Positions 29,901 to 61,621 of a stretch of DNA of 64,000 nt are shown in pieces. The translations under genes and the position numbers were made by a program. This DNA comes from Siphonodentalium dalli. Its lineage: Eukaryota > Mollusca > Scaphopoda > Gadilida > Siphonodentaliidae. The stretch lies in NCBI GenBank assembly GCA_032622095.1, contig CP136062.1, forward strand, positions 133,815,282 through 133,879,281, read 5' to 3'. The notes beneath the pieces are model-generated. The model worked only from the letters and a program-made list of their open reading frames with translations. It ran no database searches and was not told where the DNA came from. Positions within the stretch are counted from its first letter, which is position 1, and each line of letters opens with the position of its first letter.

Positions 29901-32900
29901 TGGACAAAAATATGGAAGATATACAAAATTGGCATTTATGCAAAATTGACATACTGGGTGGGGTTCAAACCATATAATATAATGAAATAATAATGACACA
30001 TTTGTGTGTGTCTGCGTTGTTTACAATTTGATTAAATTTTTTTAATCTTTAGCTATAAAGTTCAAAAATAAATCTGTTCAAACAAGACAATGTTCTAATC
30101 AGTTTGCACCAAATAGTTAATATTTGCACTGAATATAGGCACTCAACAACACAGAAGATTGAAAAAAAAAAAATAATATCTACATGCATATATACACATC
30201 AGCGCATACATACATGCATTTACATATATATATATATTCATCAGGCACATCTTCTCATTTTTTTAAATTCATTTTACTAATGAGAGAAGGTCGTTTTATA
30301 GTTATAATTTCTTTCCTTATTGGAAGTTCAATTCCAAAAGTTAGAGTTAATTCTATCTTTTTAGTACAATCTGGACAAAACTTGTTTTTGCACTTAATAT
30401 TCGAAGAATAATTGTCAATAATTGATTTGGTAAATTTGTTCTTAAAGCCTGGCTTCGATTGGATATTCTGTAGAGTAACGTCAAGAGTGTTCCAAATTTT
30501 TGGAAATACATGGAGGGGTAGTTTTTCAGTGAATTTAATGCGAGCCCTTGTTTCCTGTATTTTTCCTGAGGACCTAGTACTCATACTCGGATGTTTATAT
30601 ATTCTAAAACTATTAACAAATGATTTGGGAACATTTACATATTTCCAGTCGTGCATAAATAGACATATCCGATGCATATACTCATCCTGCAGCTTCAAAA
30701 TGTTATTAGATTTAAATAATGGTTCGGTGTGACTATTGTAGCGTTTTTTATTAATAGCTCGAATTTCCTTTTTCTGAAGTACAATAACTTGATTTTGAGT
30801 ACTTGCATTTCCCCATAACTCAATTCCATAAAGAATGTGAGAATGTACTAAGGTAAGATATAGCATTCTAAGACAATCGAAAGAAAGGAAATTTTTTACT
30901 CGATTTATAGCATAAAGAGAATTAGAAATTTTCGCACAAACAGCTTTCACATGGTATTCAAATGTCAGATGTTCATCTATGTGAATACCTAAAAATTTGA
31001 AAGATTTTTCTTGACAATCGGATCCTATCCTTTCAATCGGCTGTTTATTTATATTCAACATTCTATTTGCAACTAAATACGGGCCATTTATTGGTTGTAT
31101 CACCATATATTTAGTCTTATTTGTATTTAATGATAGTTTGTTTGCTCTACACCAAGTACTCAATTTTTTCAAGCTCTTTTTTGAAGTAGTCATACAAATA
31201 ATCAAGGTTGTGATGTGAAGAATACACAGTTGTGTCATCAGCAAAGGATAAAAGTGATAGGTTATTAGATCTGTGCATATCATTAACATAGACCAGAAAA
31301 AGAATCGGACCTGCAACAGATCCCTGGGGGACTCCACATGTAATTGGAAGTTTAGAAGAAACCATACCTTCCAGTTCCACACATTGGTATCTATTTGTCA
31401 GATAATTTCTAAACCACTCATTGGCTTTGCCTCTTATTCCATAAGAATCAAGTTTATTTAGCAAAATTTCATGATTTATTGTGTCAAAAGCTTTGGAAAA
31501 ATCAATAAATACAGATAGCGTACAATCTTTATCCTTCTTATCATTATTCAAACCCACATCATAGAGTAGCTTCAAAATTGGATGAATTGTTGAATGATCT
31601 TTTCTAAACCCATATTGATTATGATAGAGAGTATCATGTTTTATTTAAAAAAACAACTAGTCTGTGACATACAATTTTTTCTAAGATTTTAGAAAAAATG
31701 GGCAGAATACTTATTGGGCGATAATTTCCCATTATCTTTTGGTCGCCTGATTTGAAGAGGGGTATAACTTTTGCTATCTTCATGTCTTCTGGAACAATTC
31801 CTGTTTCCATTGAGAGATTGAAAATATGACATAAGGGTTGTGAAATTTCCGAGATAACTTTCTTCATAATGAAAGAGCTAAGACCATCTTTGTCAATGCT
31901 GTGCTTCCCTTTACTTAAGGAAACCGTTGTATGAATTTCTTCCGGTGTAGTGGGATGAAAAAAGATTGTTTCACTACAAGGTGTAGGTAAGTATGAAGAG
32001 TATTTGTTACAAGTTTGTGATATTTTCTCAGCCGCAGTAGCGCCAATGGTAGAAAAATATTCATTAAAGGCGTCAGCAGCTTCTTTCCTATTTCTACTTT
32101 CGACACTCCCAATAATGAATGACATGGGATATTCTAATTTTTTAGATCTTTGTTGCATTATCTCACCAATCAGTTTCCATGTTTTTTTCATATTATGTTT
32201 ATATTCATTTATCATATTTTTATAGTACAAGGTCTTACTTGCTCGTTTTATTTTATTAAAAAGTTTACAAAATTCTTTGTATTCTGTTACATTACTTTCG
32301 GAAGGGTTCTTAAGCTTTGTGGTAAAAAGTTTAGCTTTATGTTCAGATGAAATCATCATTCCCTTGGTAATCCATGGTTTCTGTTTGGTGGATTTTGATC
32401 GTGATCGTTTTAATGGAAAAGCTATTTCAAAGGCATTTAAATAAATTTCCATAAATGATTTATATGACTCCTGTGGACACGTTCGTCCTACAACACTATT
32501 ATAATTAGCCGTTCCTAGTAGTCTTTTAAAGCATGATATATTTTCATCATTATAGTTCCGCCAGTATTCTATTTTAGCTTTTGGGCAAGATTTATTTTTG
32601 TTACTCTTATAACAGAGGAAAGTACCGAAGTGGTCAGATATCTCACTTAGTATAATACCCGTTTCATAATCAATAGTTGGATCATTTATTAAAATCTGAT
32701 CTATCAGAGTAGCAGTGAAGTTTGACACTCTAGTTGGTTTTGTTATTGTTGGGAGGAAACTAGAAGGAAAGACATAATTAAGAAAATTGTTAGTTTTATC
32801 ATGTCTACCGTATTTCAATAAGTCAATGTTGAAATCTCCCATAAAAACTATTTTTTTATGTTCTCTATTGGTTTGGTCCATTTTCTCATTCATAAGGTTG

Positions 32901-35900
32901 ATAAATTTATCTAGGTCCGCTTTTGGTGCTGTATTAGGCCTATAAATTGTTCCAATTATATACGTTTTATTTTTATTTGTCAACACTTCAACAAAAAGTG
33001 ACTCAAATACATGAGGAATAAATGTTGTTAAATCTGCTCTGATTTTATAAGATAAGTCTTTTCGAATGTACATGCCAACACCGCTGTGAGAGTCATCTCC
33101 ATCCGGACGGCACCGTTTAATTAATGGATGGTATCCATTAAGTGGAAAATCAATACTATCCGGAGTCCTGAAGATTTCAGTTAGGCCAATAACTCCAAAT
33201 TTTGATTTATTATTTTGTAATTCAAACATTAGAGTATTAAAATCATCCCAGTGCGAATTAAGACTTTGACAGTTCAGGTGAAAAACAGATAGACAGTCAT
33301 CACTTGTAGATACGTTATCATGAAACGATTTTGGAGAAAAATACTGACAATTGGGTATTTGTAAGATATTCTCATCTTCTTGTTCACCAAAGTCTAGTCC
33401 CCCTGGACCAGAGATAAGTTTTTTCAGGTTATAATTGGGATCTTCATCCAGCGTGCCGAGTGCCACAGTGCTTTCTGAATTAGTCTCAGCCATTGTCAAG
33501 AATATAACAATTACAGTCTATTGTTATAGTGAACTTGTAGTGAAATATTGAATGTCTAGAACTAAATGAATAAAAATCAAATATAGTAATTGAGGTACAA
33601 AACATGATGCATGGTATTTGCAGAATGAGATCCCCAGAGGGCAAGTTCAGTGACGCTATCCCACAAAGCAGGCTAGCATGACAAAATCCACCCTCCAGGT
33701 ACCCCACTCGATATTGCCTATAATCCGAAGATGTCGCATTATCTGCAAAAATCAAGATAATAGTAGTAATCAGAGACCCAGTTATCTCATAATGAGATTC
33801 TCATTCAAGGAACAACTTGACTATTGCATCTTTGACAGGAATTTCCAGCATGACATTTACTAATACCAGAACTAACAGCCCAAATATGTCTTATTCTTTG
33901 TTTATTTGATATTTTATTTTTGCTTCAGGGTGAATTAGAGATCTCTGATGGCTATAGTGTGAAGGTTACAGATTTCAGAGATGGAGATATTGGTTAGTAT
34001 TGCTACCAATGAGGTCTGGGAGGTTGCTAGAGGGTCTCAGCTGCACCAGCCCCCCCCCCCCCCCCCCCCCCCCACACTTGAATCATACAAAAAATTCCAA
34101 ATCTGGGAAATTTGCATCCCTGCAGCTTGGGATGGAATCTCCACCTGGTATCTCAAGCTCTCCAACTGTTGTAAATTTTCACCCTTTTGGCCCCCTATGG
34201 TTGGAATGGCCATTTCATAAAAAAAAATTGACAGAAAGTACTGGCAAGTAGGGAAATATTCAAATTTTGGTCTAAAAACAACAGATATCCCACTAAATTC
34301 TGGTTAGGATATCAAACTACAAGAACAATTTCAATGTATCTTGGTCTGAAATATCAAACTGATTCTGTGTCAGGCATGAACATTCTAGCTGTTGAAAATT
34401 TTGTTCAAAGAGGTGGTGTCAACACTATTATCCCCCCCCCCCCCACACACCCCCACACCAGCCATGAATGGGGGGGTGGACTGTCAAAAGAGCTGTGTAA
34501 ACCATTTATCATTGCTTTTGAAATTCTTAATATTAGTTGGCGTATACTATAAATAACACAAACATTTGCTATAACTTTATAACAATGGAAGCTTGAATGG
34601 ACACAGCTGTCAATCATGTAATTATTAGCAGATATTTTATAGAATTCAGCGACTGAGCCTGTTGCTTGTGACAATAAAAATTCTTTGTTCCATCTAATTT
34701 TGATATCTGCTCATATTTTCAGTGTAAAATTGTCTTTATTGTCCCCGACATTCTGTCGGAGGACTATAGTATTGACCCTCATCCATGTGTGTGCGTCCGT
34801 CCGTCCATCCATCAATCCTGTCCGTCCATCAACAATTCTTTAAACATCTTCTCCAGAATCATAAGACTGAATGGGTTCATATTTGATGTGGCTGTTCCCT
34901 AGGCGACTCACATTAAGAAATTGTTCAAATGAGGTCACTGGGTCAAATAGTTGCAAAGCCAGGGCCATAACTCTTTCCCTCCATAGTAATTCTTAAAACA
35001 ACTTATTCTCAAGCACCATTTTTTTTTTAAATGTGAATAATTTTTGTTTTTTTAATTAAATTTTGACCTAATCTACTCACAACAATACATAAATTTGCGG
35101 ATGCATGAGCCCAGGGCCATCTTGGAATGTCCGAACATAAATGACAGTGAGTATGTGCTCCAGTGTATTAGGCTATGGCCATGGGTTTAGAGTTATTACT
35201 CTTACATAGACCATGCTGCTACCAGCCCACAATGCAACAGTAGCATCTGATACCTTTATTTACAAATTACATGTGACCAGAACAATGTTACTGACTGTTC
35301 TTGGATATGCAGGAATAAACATGTTTTGTTCCAATCTTCCCCTGAATATCTCTGGTATAGATTGGGCCTGAGGTTACACATTTTATGCCATTCTATGCAT
35401 CACTGCCGACGCAATTTTCCAGGTGTTGGGTGTTGAAAGAGAGATCGTTTTATGGAATAAATACTTGTCATTTCAAACACTCAAACCTATTGTATTTTCA
35501 TCCCCTGTTATTTCTCTTCATAGATGATCATTATTTTTCAGTGACAACTTGTCCATATTACTAAATCACTAACTTGTATTGTGGTTTAAAGTCACCTATT
35601 TCCGACTTATTTGTTTCAATCCCGGAAAGTTTTAAATAGCAGAATTGATTACCTGCCAACTTTCAGTTTAATTAACAGCAAGTTATCAAATAATCCTTAC
35701 AGTACATGTATGCACATCAGATGATCAGAAATGTGTGTTTAATACTTGCATACAGTGTTATCAGTGGTATCTGCTACTTGGTCGGAAAACATCAAAGAGA
35801 GTCTGTCGTAAATAGTTACACGGAGTTTATTCATGTGACCCACTGATGCGTTTGGTTGGTGACACAGTGACCCAGTTGTGTCATTCATAATTAACAGACA

Positions 35901-56160: not shown

Positions 56161-56430
56161 AACAGATGATTAGTAAATTATTGTAGAATACCAGAATTTG
56201 ACCACAAAGAAACTGGTTGTAGGACAACGTGAGTCCTATAATCAGTCTCTGTAGTCAAATTTGACCGTTCACGCCGAAGCATCATGTATTTATTGATTTT
56301 AATTAGACTACCAATAATTTTTGTTGGAATTATACCTACCGACATTTGGTTTCAGAAACCCACTATACTCGTCCAGTTTTTGTGGTATTGTAACATAACG
56401 AGAGAGAGAAGTGCAGGAGTTGCACCGAAA

Positions 56431-56547
56431 GTTGGCAGCACCCGGAATCCCAAGCCGGTCACCCATCCAAGTGCTAACCGGGCTCGACGTTGCTTAACTT
56501 TGGTGATCACACAAAGCGTCTAACGACCGTGACCAAGAGATCTAGAC
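56431..56547 (-). rRNA. 5S rRNA-like segment (pseudogene) inside the LTR
   Basis: The minus strand from about 56508 reads GATCACCAAAGTTAAGCAAC, then GTCGAGCCCGGTTAGCACTT, GGATGGGTGACCGGCTTGGG and ATTCCGGGTGCTGCC. These match the 3' two thirds of metazoan 5S rRNA, including box A (AGTTAAGCAACG) and box C (ACTTGGATGGGTGACC). The first ~40 nt are not 5S-like except for GTCTA at the start. Length (117 nt) is close to 120. No T-run terminator follows. Function as rRNA is unlikely; the internal RNA polymerase III promoter could still work. Confidence 0.8.
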
Positions 56548-56803
56548 CCCTCGAGCAGAGAAGTCATCGGCCTTCTATATTTACAACGCGACCGTTTCAC
56601 TTTTTTACATGATGATACAAGCTTTCCAACGATGTGATGCACGATGGAAAATGATACAACGTGCAAATGCGTTCCCTTAGTTCATAAAGGTGTGAATAAT
56701 TTAAGAGGTGAAAAAGTTAATTAAATTTACTATAAGTTTTGGAACTTGACAGCTTCGCGAGTTTTCATTGGTCAATTAGCTGTCACGCTCCCGTCAAGTC
56801 CGC

Positions 56804-56917
56804 TATAAAATGGATGCTCTCCTGAGCATCAGGGTCTTTAGTCTCTAGTCAATAGTCAGTTTTCGATCACTAATTGAAACTTCCTAAATATTAATCACTC
56901 CTTACTTTAACTAAGGG
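56804..56917 (+). promoter_or_regulatory. TATA promoter, initiator and splice donor of the LTR
   Basis: CTATAAAATGG with the TATA at 56804-56810; the expected start is near 56831 at GCATCAGGGTC. An exon of about 86 nt would end at 56916 before GTAAGTGAAG. Inverted CCAAT is 37 bp upstream of the TATA box. All elements face the plus strand. Confidence 0.5.
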
Positions 56918-57210
56918 TAAGTGAAGCATGGGTATTGTAGGCAAATTATACTAATTGGTAGCAGTTGCATTGGAGACCAGTCCCCGATATTCATGCTAAT
57001 AGTATTGTTTGACTCAATGTGATTTGATGACTTCTGTGATTGTGTGATTAAATAAATGATGAGAAACTGAAAGTGATATTTTATGGTTTAATTGCCAATT
57101 TATCTGGAAAGAGCTATGTGCCGCCTCCGCATCTTTGGTGAGCCCCATGACCCATAGTAAGACTGTTCAGACTCGTCCGGGACCACTCAGCCACCATCCT
57201 GTTACAGTAT

Positions 57211-58527: not shown

Positions 58528-58869
58528 AAAAATATTATTTTTAAAAGTATAATACATTTTTCCGTAAAGAAAGCCTGAACACTGAACTATATGGATATAT
58601 GTCCTGCTTTTGTAAACCATAGTAGGAAAGGGGTTAACTTTTTGGTCGCCTACGAACGCTCATTGGCTTGCTCGGAATCAGTCACGCATGCGCAGTCCCA
58701 ATATAACTCACTGTACAGATTGAATTCGTCAGTTTATTTTCAACTCAATCAGAAGATTGGCGAGTTGCGGGGTTGGGAATGGCACCACCATGGGAGGGCC
58801 CTATGATAGTTCAGTGTTCAGGCTTTCTTTAAGGAAAAATGTATTATACTTTTAAAAATAATATTTTTC
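58528..58869. mobile_element. Fold-back element A with TTTTTCCG ends
   Basis: The arms run from AAAAATATTATTTTTAAAAG inward through ATACATTTTTCCGTAAAGAA, AGCCTGAACACTGAACTAT and pair with the complement at 58806-58869. The centre holds a GGACTGCGCATGCGTGACTG-containing stretch (read on the minus strand), shared with the right end of the neighbour element at 61440-61577. No coding evidence. Confidence 0.7.
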
Positions 58870-60180
58870 CGCCAAAGGAAGCCTTCACACTGAACTATAT
58901 GGATTAGAATGCAAGCCCAGGAGGAGGCACGAGCAATAAAGTTAATAGCCAAATTTTGAGTAAAGGTACTCTTCTAAAACAGATTGTACCATATATGAAC
59001 TCTTTAATGAATCTGTTAGGATTATTTACGTGAAATAACTCATATAGTTAGAGTGCTATATTGCTCAAATGTGTACTGTCCCCCTTGTTTTGAAACAAAC
59101 ATCCCATGAGGTGCCATCCAATTCATAGTTGCGAGCGAACCGAGCAAGTATAACGGAAGAAGAAACTCTTCGTTCTTCTCTGTGTCGTCTTCATCATCTG
59201 TCGGTTCTAAGGTCCCACCCGTCAAGGTCCCATGATGCAGGATCATGAAGGAAGGAGACTAACTCACTCTCCGCCTTAGCGACAGAACGACCTGCACAGG
59301 AGGAGGCCCACTCCGAAGATGGCGAGACAACCAACATTAAGAGTTAACTAACTGATGTTCGCCAAAGAAAAAGGCAGAGAACCTGATGCCAAATTTGTGG
59401 CACAGGGATCGAGTTGAGAACCCAATAGGCCAAACGGGTTGTACAACGATAATGGAGACAAGCCATCGGAACAGAGTGCTCCCCCCACCACCGCATCTTG
59501 CAAGGTGGTCATGCCCCCTATCGTTCTTCTTAGAACAGCTTCCTTGTTTTTCTTTTACTGATCACATATCTCTGAGGTACCTATGCATCACAAGATATCA
59601 GACAGAAACCCTGTGATACAAATCTTACGCGTATATAAATATATAAAATGATATAAAATATATATCAAAGTGATATATAAGTCAGCAATGAGATCATGTC
59701 AGACGGCCCTACCAAAGCTGCGTCCACGTTCCCAGTGGAATACCCACCGCGATCTGAATTTAAGAAATTAAGGTGCGCAGACCGTGTCGATATACGAAAT
59801 AGTCAAATAGTTGTCTCTTCGACAACTGAAATCAGTTCAAATGATGTACAATGTAATCAGATGATAAACACGGGTAAATTGTCACCATACGGAATATTCA
59901 GTTCTGAGCCTCTGCCCAGAACATCATGTCACTTTCCCCCCCAAACATGCAGCAGAACGACCTAGGTGTGTGATAGGTAGGTTAGTGTGAGGCATGCAGC
60001 AAACTAGAGGAAGACCCTCTCTAAAATGGCTCGCTGATGAAGGAAACAAATGAAATTATCATCCTCCTAGTAAAGGACACACATCCCTTTATAATGTTAC
60101 TTATTGAATTTTAAGAGCCATGATAGAGAGGAGCTCCCCTGACCTAAGTGGTCCTGTTGAAGGCATGTTTAAGGAAAATA

Positions 60181-60640
60181 GGACAAATCCAGCATAGACC
60201 GAAGCGAGCAGAGTTGTCAGCATGGTTTCAGGCCCTTATGATTGGGCGGCTGGTGCCATGTGGTTGGGATCCACTCATATGGGTTGGTCCCTGCCTGCAA
60301 GGAAAGGTCTGCAATGCTAGTCAATGAGCTTCCTCGAAAGCTGAGATGGACAGCGCAAACGTCTTTGCCTGTTTTATTGTCGAATGTTGATAGGATAAAT
60401 CCGGCATATACCGAAGCGCGCAGAGTTGGCAGCATGGTTTCATGCCCTTATGATCGGGCGTCTGGTGCCATGGGGTTGGGATCCACTCGGACTGGGTGGT
60501 CTCCTGCCTGCAAGGAAAGGTCTATAACGCTAGTCAATGAGCTTCCTCGAAAGCTGAGCTGGACAGTGCAAACGTCTTTGCCCGTGTTATTGTCTATTGT
60601 CTATAGGACAAATCCAGCATAGACCGAAGCGCGCAGTGCC
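60181..60640. repeat. ~212-bp tandem repeat, just over two units
   Basis: GGACAAATCCAGCATAGACC recurs at 60181, 60393 (GGATAAATCCGGCATATACC) and 60606. The units share CCTGCAAGGAAAGGTCT and GAGCTTCCTCGAAAGCTGAG. Both copies lie in one open frame on the plus strand (60242-60622), without domain features. Confidence 0.8.
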
Positions 60641-60860
60641 CTCCTGTTAATTTTATTACTATGTGCCAGATAATCAAATTGATATTGGTAATAGGAGTAT
60701 GAAGAGCCATGAGATGTACTCTGTCGGCAAGGTCATTGGCAGTGTCGTTGTGGCACGTGACAAGAGAAATGCTTTCCATGTAGATGTGCTTCATTCATGT
60801 GTGAAGTCTATTGACCAGTGCGTCAGTCGCGGGTCGTGTACCTTACCTATGAAATGTATA

Positions 60861-61487
60861 TCACAGGTAAGATAGATCGTGTTCTCGATGCATTTTGAAG
60901 ACGGTGGTACGAGTGCGCAGGGCGAGCCAGGCGAGCTTGAGAGTACATAGTTCAGTAGGAAGAAGCATATAGATGAGATAAACCTTGGATAGGAAATCAC
61001 GATCCGCAGCTTCTGCCTTACCGATGCCAGACTGTGACGACCGAAAAGACCCACAGTCTGACGTATTGTGCGCAGACGGGTCGTCATCGAAAGCCTCAGA
61101 CGCCTTGGGGTGTAAGGATAGCATGTCGCTCCCTGCCCTAGCATCGGAACGACCTGCAATGTCCATAATGGATGACAAAACACTAGAGGGAGGCCCATTC
61201 CGGCGATGGCTCAATCGAGGTGTAAATACCTCCCATGGAATTTCAAGCTGATCGAAAACACGGAACAAATGTATGTCGGAAGCGAAACGGTCCGTGAATT
61301 CGAAACGATAATTATAAAAACGAACGCGTAGGCGACCAGTAATTATTGTATCGATAAATTGAATTTGTTGTCTAGTTGTTAAACGACAAATTCGGAAAAA
61401 TACTCCCTTAGATTTCCGTTCGGTTCCGTAGCAGAATATAAACTGACAAATTAAATCTGTACAGTGAGTTATATTGGGACTGCACAT
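60861..61487 (-). CDS. 208-residue open frame in element B, unrecognised
   Basis: The longest frame of element B starts at 61487 inside the right-end block shared with element A and runs inward. It has an Arg/Phe/Tyr-rich first half (TGRLRVRFYNYRFEFTDRF), a Ser/Asp-rich middle (SDARAGSDMLSLHPKASE) and a leucine-rich end. No known domain could be assigned. A competing 88-residue plus-strand frame at 60985-61251 overlaps it, and one of the two may be chance. If real, it would be a transposon protein or captured sequence. The evidence is length and position only. Confidence 0.3.
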   Translation of the reverse strand: MCSPNITHCTDLICQFIFCYGTERKSKGVFFRICRLTTRQQIQFIDTIITGRLRVRFYNYRFEFTDRFASDIHLFRVFDQLEIPWEVFTPRLSHRRNGPPSSVLSSIMDIAGRSDARAGSDMLSLHPKASEAFDDDPSAHNTSDCGSFRSSQSGIGKAEAADRDFLSKVYLIYMLLPTELCTLKLAWLALRTRTTVFKMHREHDLSYL

Positions 61488-61621
61488 GCGTGACTGATTC
61501 CAAGCAAGCCAATGAGCGTTCGTAGGCGACCAAAAAGTTAACCCCTTTCCTACTATGGTTTACAAAAGCAGGACATATATCCATATAGTTCAGTGTGAAG
61601 GCTTCCTTTGGCGGAAAAATA

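Follow-up and report, generated by a model that had tools for sequence, protein, structure and literature searches.

In plants, TRIM elements of the Cassandra family carry a 5S rRNA promoter within their LTRs in the sense of the element, and according to the published accounts they also form tandem LTR-INT arrays, keep their promoter boxes conserved while tolerating changes between the boxes, and possess conserved Pol III terminators (PMC7215508, PMC10853983). The partner that mobilizes Cassandra is given as unknown in the published survey of Kojima 2024 (PMC10886601). As described there, a comparable animal system is Ajax, a TRIM of the TRIMp3 group found in two nemerteans, with 5S sequence in its LTR, a primer-binding site (PBS) for tRNA-Leu, a 5-bp target duplication (TSD), a length of 421–434 bp, and 1114 LTRs in Lineus (PMC10886601). 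The same description includes Helenus, an animal TRIM whose LTR is tRNA-like and thus has a small-RNA promoter, with a 4-bp TSD and an inferred Gypsy partner, and reports a bivalve Gypsy with a tRNA-Pro primer (PMC10886601). Solo and tandem forms are also known from the animal biv-TRIM, for which no canonical PBS is identified in the report and the main text mentions "5S rRNA" 0 times (PMC6934838). A literature search, with subscription papers mostly outside its scope, yielded no further animal 5S TRIM. Here we describe a family in the scaphopod mollusk Siphonodentalium dalli that is a well-supported new 5S TRIM of this already published kind. An earlier note on the same DNA, made from its sequence alone, had regarded an animal LTR with a 5S module as an independent case; it is not the first in an animal, as Ajax was described before (PMC10886601).

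The window, i.e., the whole stretch of 64,000 nucleotides that was analyzed, lies on contig C2 of a 2.23-Gb assembly of 9 contigs (G000). Within it the interval 56389–57206 had been read as a single LTR with an antisense 5S segment. The motifs behind that reading are all in place: TGTAACA at 56389, TGTTACA ending at 57206, GTAT at 56385–56388 and again at 57207–57210, and, in the order expected of promoter and processing signals, ATTGG (reverse CCAAT) at 56767–56771, TATAAAA at 56804–56810, the donor-like GGTAAGT at 56916–56922, and AATAAA at 57051–57056. The interval is nevertheless not one LTR; it is a patchwork of a 5S-TRIM solo LTR and rearranged remains of an LTR element that is unrelated to it. 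Very probably 56389–56599 is a solo LTR of a TRIM with a sense 5S-derived Pol III promoter, and the remainder is a rearranged fragment of the unrelated LTR. The features are as follows.

56389–56599, minus strand (element sense): solo LTR of about 211 bp, 5S-bearing TRIM subfamily A; 93.8% identical by BLAST to the L020 LTR across 208 bp (56389–56594)
56430–56553, minus strand: 5S rRNA-like segment, about nt 41–113 recognizable and the 5′ part diverged; Rfam RF00001, 28.9 bits, E 0.0012
56456–56506, minus strand: core promoter, 5S nt 43–93; 49 of 51 positions equal to the genomic 5S, and 51 of 51 alike between the majority sequences of subfamilies A and B
56485–56499, 56477–56482, and 56452–56469, minus strand: box A, IE, and box C, respectively, with limits following the Xenopus 5S numbering
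56575–56583, minus strand: TATA-like TAAATATAG within the conserved head of U3, some 28–36 nt before the inferred +1 of the 5S
56600–56738, minus strand: piece of the other LTR element that runs opposite to the piece following it; similarity from 56602, 93.4% to the LTR of L011 in opposite orientation
56733–57206, plus strand: 3′ part of the unrelated LTR with the end TGTTACA; about 75–76% to L021–L028 and L011
57207–57210, plus strand: GTAT as read in the sequence, equal to 56385–56388

The composite nature of the interval emerges from several genome searches. With the entire 818 bp as query (best 40 of 1950 first-look candidates scored) 64 matches were obtained, among which the window alone was matched at full length and the rest ended at or before query position 225. 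When the query was begun to the left of 56389 (best 40 of 1748 candidates scored), the alignments started mostly at 56389 and in some cases up to 13 bases further left. The right-hand part, 56601–57206, gave 46 genome matches that belong to another family (27 of 27 candidates scored), and in eight of eight copies of this neighbor family (L021–L028) the piece 56602–56738 lies about 90 bp upstream of the rest in inverted orientation. The 5S part, 56389–56599, is without match in these eight copies and, by BLAST, in the complete neighbor LTR of L011. This LTR, complete in the L011/L012 pair, is about 1.57 kb long, starts with TGTAATGACC, and ends with TGTTACA; the element has the TSD ATAC and the primer site TTGGTGTCAGAA, and its putative label as Gypsy-type is taken from the 4-bp TSD alone. 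The TATA, donor, AATAAA, and CCAAT-like signals are all found within the neighbor-LTR piece 56733–57206.

Thus the matching TG...CA ends and the GTAT on both sides, which speak for a single working LTR whose two promoters face away from each other in direction, are outweighed: there is no second collinear copy among the scored candidates, the left part has the end of a TRIM LTR, the right part comes from a different family whose 1.57-kb LTR has no 5S match, and the inner segment is inverted. We consider that reading ruled out for practical purposes: these searches revealed no element bounded by two LTRs with the ends of the 818 bp, and the true LTR is 56389–56599. The two promoters face opposite ways in the window only because the TRIM LTR adjoins an oppositely directed piece of another LTR; within the TRIM itself the 5S is in sense, following the direction LTR-PBS-internal-PPT-LTR (PPT, polypurine tract), and not antisense as had been proposed.

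Since the left and right parts come from separate families, the GTAT pair joins the ends of two different elements. When flanks are shuffled, about 2.7% of the pairs agree over 4 bp (1.29 of 47), and chance is most likely the explanation here; possibly the pair is a relic of a joint insertion. A single integration of joined cDNA from the TRIM and the LTR element would place GTAT directly outside the U5 ends of both, as observed, with the same 2.7% as the chance expectation, and the locus L144 described below illustrates that TRIM hybrids are able to integrate. However, the neighbor has a different PBS (TTGGTGTCAGAA) and is not of the L116 type found in that hybrid, an additional inversion would be needed, and the two neighbor pieces differ in divergence (93% vs. 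76%), so that we hold a joint integration to be improbable.

The preferred reading leaves the window feature itself ordinary, namely a solo LTR beside LTR debris. Probes for the LTRs and internal regions of both TRIM subfamilies matched the 64-kb window solely at 56389–56599, the last 5 bp beyond the BLAST match being assigned by eye. In sense direction the LTR starts with TGAAACGG, vs. TGTAGCGG as usual in the family, with two altered bases at the U3 end; it ends with TGTTACA, and has no TSD of its own (5′ flank AAAG, 3′ flank ATAC). The 5S-like segment on the minus strand, already recognized in the earlier note, is genuine and degenerate: the window had 0 5S matches in Rfam at the gathering threshold, and because its bit score falls under the gathering score of 38, the segment is hardly a working 5S. 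A promoter role for the TATA-like TAAATATAG is conceivable from its position.

In the genome, the LTR of this type belongs to a family whose two-LTR copies possess a PBS, a PPT, and TSDs, so an LTR family with a 5S module does exist as the earlier note had supposed, and the direct-orientation LTR pairs around a PBS and PPT that it had proposed to look for are present for an LTR of 211–213 bp. We read 84 loci (L017–L020 and L036–L115), comprising 40 of 40 places with full copies and 44 of 47 other places (three omitted); the copies are the top of the ranked genome matches rather than a whole-genome census. Units of subfamily A have an LTR of 211–213 bp and an INT of 101 bp, and those of subfamily B an LTR of 213 bp and an INT of 110 bp. 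LTR-INT-LTR, solo LTR, and tandem LTR-INT-LTR-INT-LTR forms were seen among the 84 loci, and short inverted fragments of LTR ends were found beside full copies (L019 140–169; L081 1212–1248). Complete LTR-INT-LTR copies measure 447–540 bp in A (27 copies) and 524–536 bp in B (18 copies), all below 1 kb. The family has no coding capacity, to judge from one A and one B copy in which no overlapping ORF is longer than 91 codons.

The PBS begins after a 1-nt spacer inside the 5′ LTR in both subfamilies, and is TGGGGGCTCGTCCG in A, with 14 nt complementary to the 3′ end of tRNA-Pro plus CCA, and TGGGGGCTCGTCCGGGA in B, with at least 17 nt complementary to the same end; the comparison was made by eye with the tRNA-Pro genes of this genome, as found by ARAGORN. 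A PPT-like tract, also identified by eye, directly precedes the 3′ LTR (AAAAAGAACGGGGGAGTAG in A; GAGGAAGGGAGGAA in B). Separately, tRNA-Pro sequence recurs in other contexts in this genome: the pattern with up to 3 mismatches has 292 genome matches, and at L033–L035 (G000:C3, about 244.76–245.64 Mb) there are tandem arrays of units of about 1413 bp, with two tRNA-Pro and two tRNA-Gly genes each in the two loci scanned. The PBS region of L120 (G000:C2:216065127) at about 1444–1518 shows a palindrome of the tRNA-Pro 3′ part including CCA, which adjoins an LTR-like end common to L147 and resembles a reverse-transcribed primer tRNA or a fold-back.

Target duplications were evaluated from 96 chains in the subfamily A set, of which 53 had both ends and 47 remained after removal of identical flank pairs, a few near-identical duplicates still being among them (e.g., L112 beside L075). 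An exact 4-bp TSD is found in 29 of the 47, compared to a mean of 1.29 and a maximum of 6 in 2000 trials with shuffled flanks; the 3-bp and 5-bp registers each gave 0 of 47, and 11 of the 18 copies without an exact TSD are one base off. The 47 include 27 LTR-INT-LTR chains and 16 single LTRs, 8 of the latter with TSD, though a few of the 16 are not true solos (L094 continues into an internal region, and L081 is counted twice). For subfamily B the sample comprised 20 of about 40 listed loci together with L118, L119, and L121 (23 in total; 18 two-ended; 16 deduplicated), and 14 of 16 copies have an exact 4-bp TSD (shuffled mean 0.99, maximum 5; 5-bp register 1 of 16).

These ends bear on the suggestion that the 5S segment entered an LTR on its own, as a SINE3-like insertion. 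A partial 5S with a diverged 5′ part does recall the heads of SINE3, and a SINE3 insertion is proposed as the origin of Ajax in the published description (Kojima 2024, PMC10886601). SINE3 elements have no LTRs and their copies end at the 5S head, whereas the copies read here extend beyond the 5S by about 41 and 46 bp, as far as the TG...CA ends of the LTR; many of them have a 4-bp TSD, and they have a PBS and PPT. An independent SINE insertion is therefore very unlikely to account for the copies read, and a SINE3 insertion may still be the remote origin of the 5S in the TRIM LTR.

The head-to-tail spacing of 312 bp and the arrays of three LTRs could also suggest 5S rDNA pseudogene arrays or a satellite. 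Against this stand the preponderance of LTR-INT-LTR chains and single LTRs among the complete A chains, the TSDs flanking 29 of the 47, and the location of the genuine 5S genes elsewhere: the best 47 of 95478 candidates scored reach 104–118 bits with Rfam, at loci separate from the TRIM units. We regard such an array as scarcely credible. The 5S of this genome presumably resembles lophotrochozoan 5S. A search with the molluscan haemocyanin domain PF14830, lacking a positive control, gave 0 matches. In genomes of this sort, a sequence that resembles 5S may prove to be the LTR of a retrotransposon.

To return to the TRIM reading, we determined the majority base at each column of the LTR and compared the subfamilies, A being represented by 105 distinct LTRs of nearly full length that are more than 80% identical to the L020 probe, and B by 41 LTRs. 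The U3 head agrees in 34 of 34 columns, the remaining U3 before the 5S in 32 of 60, 5S nt 43–93 (box A, IE, and box C) in 51 of 51 with both equal to the genomic 5S, nt 94–110 in 14 of 20, the stretch after nt 110 in 34 of 43, and the last seven columns in 6 of 7. Two subfamilies thus hold the core promoter exactly while the adjacent U3 changed, as expected for a putatively selected Pol III promoter. Mean column agreement within A is flat at 0.93–0.98 by segment and lowest in the 5S core, hence there is no mutational cold spot; inserted copies decay evenly, and the conservation took place in the source elements. Two observations speak against a perfect constraint: the intermediate locus L117 agrees with A in only 42 of 51 core columns (L118 in 51 of 51), and the 5S of one B copy reaches only 17.5 bits (E 0.79) against Rfam.

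The elements are also poor in sense T4 runs, which are present in 8 of 27 A elements (mean 0.41 vs. 2.45 shuffled) and 4 of 18 B elements (mean 0.22 vs. 1.63 shuffled), while A-runs (antisense T4) show no depletion (found in 26 of 27 A and 17 of 18 B elements); the support from this deficit is modest as the copies are related and hence provide few independent observations. No conserved Pol III terminator was found in the A and B elements examined. As to a possible nested tRNA-5S promoter in the LTR, a B-box-like GGTGCGACTCC with 1 mismatch occurs in 47 of the 78 LTRs of A and in 28 of the 34 of B (shuffled about 0.5%), and the A-box score stays within the shuffled range. ARAGORN detected 0 tRNAs in 210 test sequences, and the exact tRNA-type pattern had 0 genome matches.

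A further question is what mobilizes a TRIM of this kind. A search for the LTR end together with the tRNA-Pro PBS gave 38 places, from which 6 loci and 11 further regions were read, together with L158, a place found in a separate search. At L116 an LTR of about 930 bp shares 8 bases with the TRIM A LTR at its start (TGTAGCGG) and 8 at its end (CTGTTACA), and the one-base spacer and PBS are identical to those of TRIM A; it is accompanied by a gag-like ORF (Retrotrans_gag E 0.006, under cut-off). The same family includes a solo LTR at L142 with the TSD CGTG, and an LTR preceded by a purine tract at L143. Upstream of L143 (L146) one of four scanned ORFs is Integrase_p58_C (E 2.7e-8), another is hAT-like, and two are without match, with no reverse transcriptase among the four; downstream of L116 (L145) no retroviral domain was found in the three of four listed ORFs that were scanned. 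A tRNA-Pro PBS alone does not prove an L116 partner: the same or a one-base-different PBS occurs with an LTR unlike that of L116 at L147, L149, L150, L151, L155, and L157 (12 loci compared). The LTR element adjoining the window LTR is likewise unsupported as a partner, since its PBS (TTGGTGTCAGAA) differs.

Because other tRNA-Pro loci exist and the PBS is undecisive, what singles out L116 is a hybrid at a single locus, L144 (G000:C9:118842000–118844800). There an L116-type Gypsy LTR (845–1775; 96%) is followed by a TRIM internal region (95%) and a TRIM LTR with 5S ending at 2090 (91%), and the entire hybrid (845–2090) has AATA on both sides, i.e., one 4-bp TSD, which like that of L142 was read at the TGTAGCGG start. 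If two elements recombined after their integration, the product would not be expected to have the same 4 bp on both sides (by chance about 2.7%), which argues that the hybrid formed before integration. L144 therefore points to an L116-type Gypsy as the candidate autonomous partner of the TRIM, and makes the question of what mobilizes Pol III-driven TRIMs testable.

From these features a possible life cycle can be outlined. TFIIIA and TFIIIC would bind the 5S boxes of the 5′ LTR, and Pol III would transcribe through the T4-poor element; a reverse transcriptase of Gypsy (Ty3-type), supplied in trans, would prime on tRNA-Pro, and the Gypsy integrase would insert the cDNA, duplicating 4 bp of the target. 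Solo LTRs and tandem arrays may afterwards arise when LTRs recombine with each other. Pol III transcription and trans-mobilization by this partner are both predictions from sequence features. In its fullest form the proposal is that of a third independent capture of a 5S promoter, after plant Cassandra and nemertean Ajax, in which the Pol III RNA shares particles with the Pol II RNA of a Gypsy family that can be identified, and the L144 hybrid DNA stems from such a mixed particle. We advance this combined scenario tentatively, judging it a serious possibility that falls somewhat short of an even call. If true, it would be direct genomic evidence identifying the autonomous element that drives a Pol III TRIM.

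The resemblance to Ajax, as far as its published description goes, covers an animal TRIM, an LTR with partial 5S (box A, IE, and box C), diverged upstream sequence, a PBS, LTRs that exceed the internal parts, and LTR numbers of similar magnitude (1114 for Lineus vs. 1012 U3 heads here). The same description sets the two apart, as the tRNA-Leu PBS, 5-bp TSD, and 421–434 bp of Ajax contrast with tRNA-Pro, 4 bp, and about 524/535 bp here (PMC10886601). Perhaps the origin of the present family is independent from that of Ajax. From plant Cassandra it almost surely is independent. The two share the sense orientation of the promoter, the tandem arrays, and the conserved boxes, yet the reported Cassandra PBS is TGGTATCAGAGC (PMC7215508) as opposed to TGGGGGCTCGTCCG(GGA) for tRNA-Pro here, and the conserved terminators reported for Cassandra have no counterpart in the elements examined. 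Helenus is similar in its small-RNA promoter within the LTR, its 4-bp TSD, and its inferred Gypsy partner; its LTR is tRNA-like, and in the present family ARAGORN recovered no tRNA while a B-box-like motif is seen.

The count of 1012 refers to genome occurrences of the U3 head, a pattern of 31 bases in which as many as 3 mismatches were allowed (509 + 503; reversed-pattern control 0), that is, LTR heads by pattern and not verified whole LTRs. LTR-LTR identity ranges over 0.925–0.986 in A (19 pairs) and 0.915–1.0 in B (22 pairs, some over partial LTRs), and the B copy L123 with an identical LTR pair indicates some recent activity. A large and partly young family thereby joins the very short list of LTR elements with a captured 5S promoter.

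Other repeats were observed in the same window. At 30255–33517 on the minus strand there is a LINE-like sequence with an endonuclease (PF03372, E 4.9e-10) and a weak reverse transcriptase match in separate frames. At 58557–61618 a pair of inverted repeats of 185 nt, 94% complementary and 2.7 kb apart, is a possible DNA transposon, whose 232-aa ORF has no Pfam match. Within this stretch, at 60178–60636, there are approximately two copies of a tandem repeat with a period of about 212 bp.
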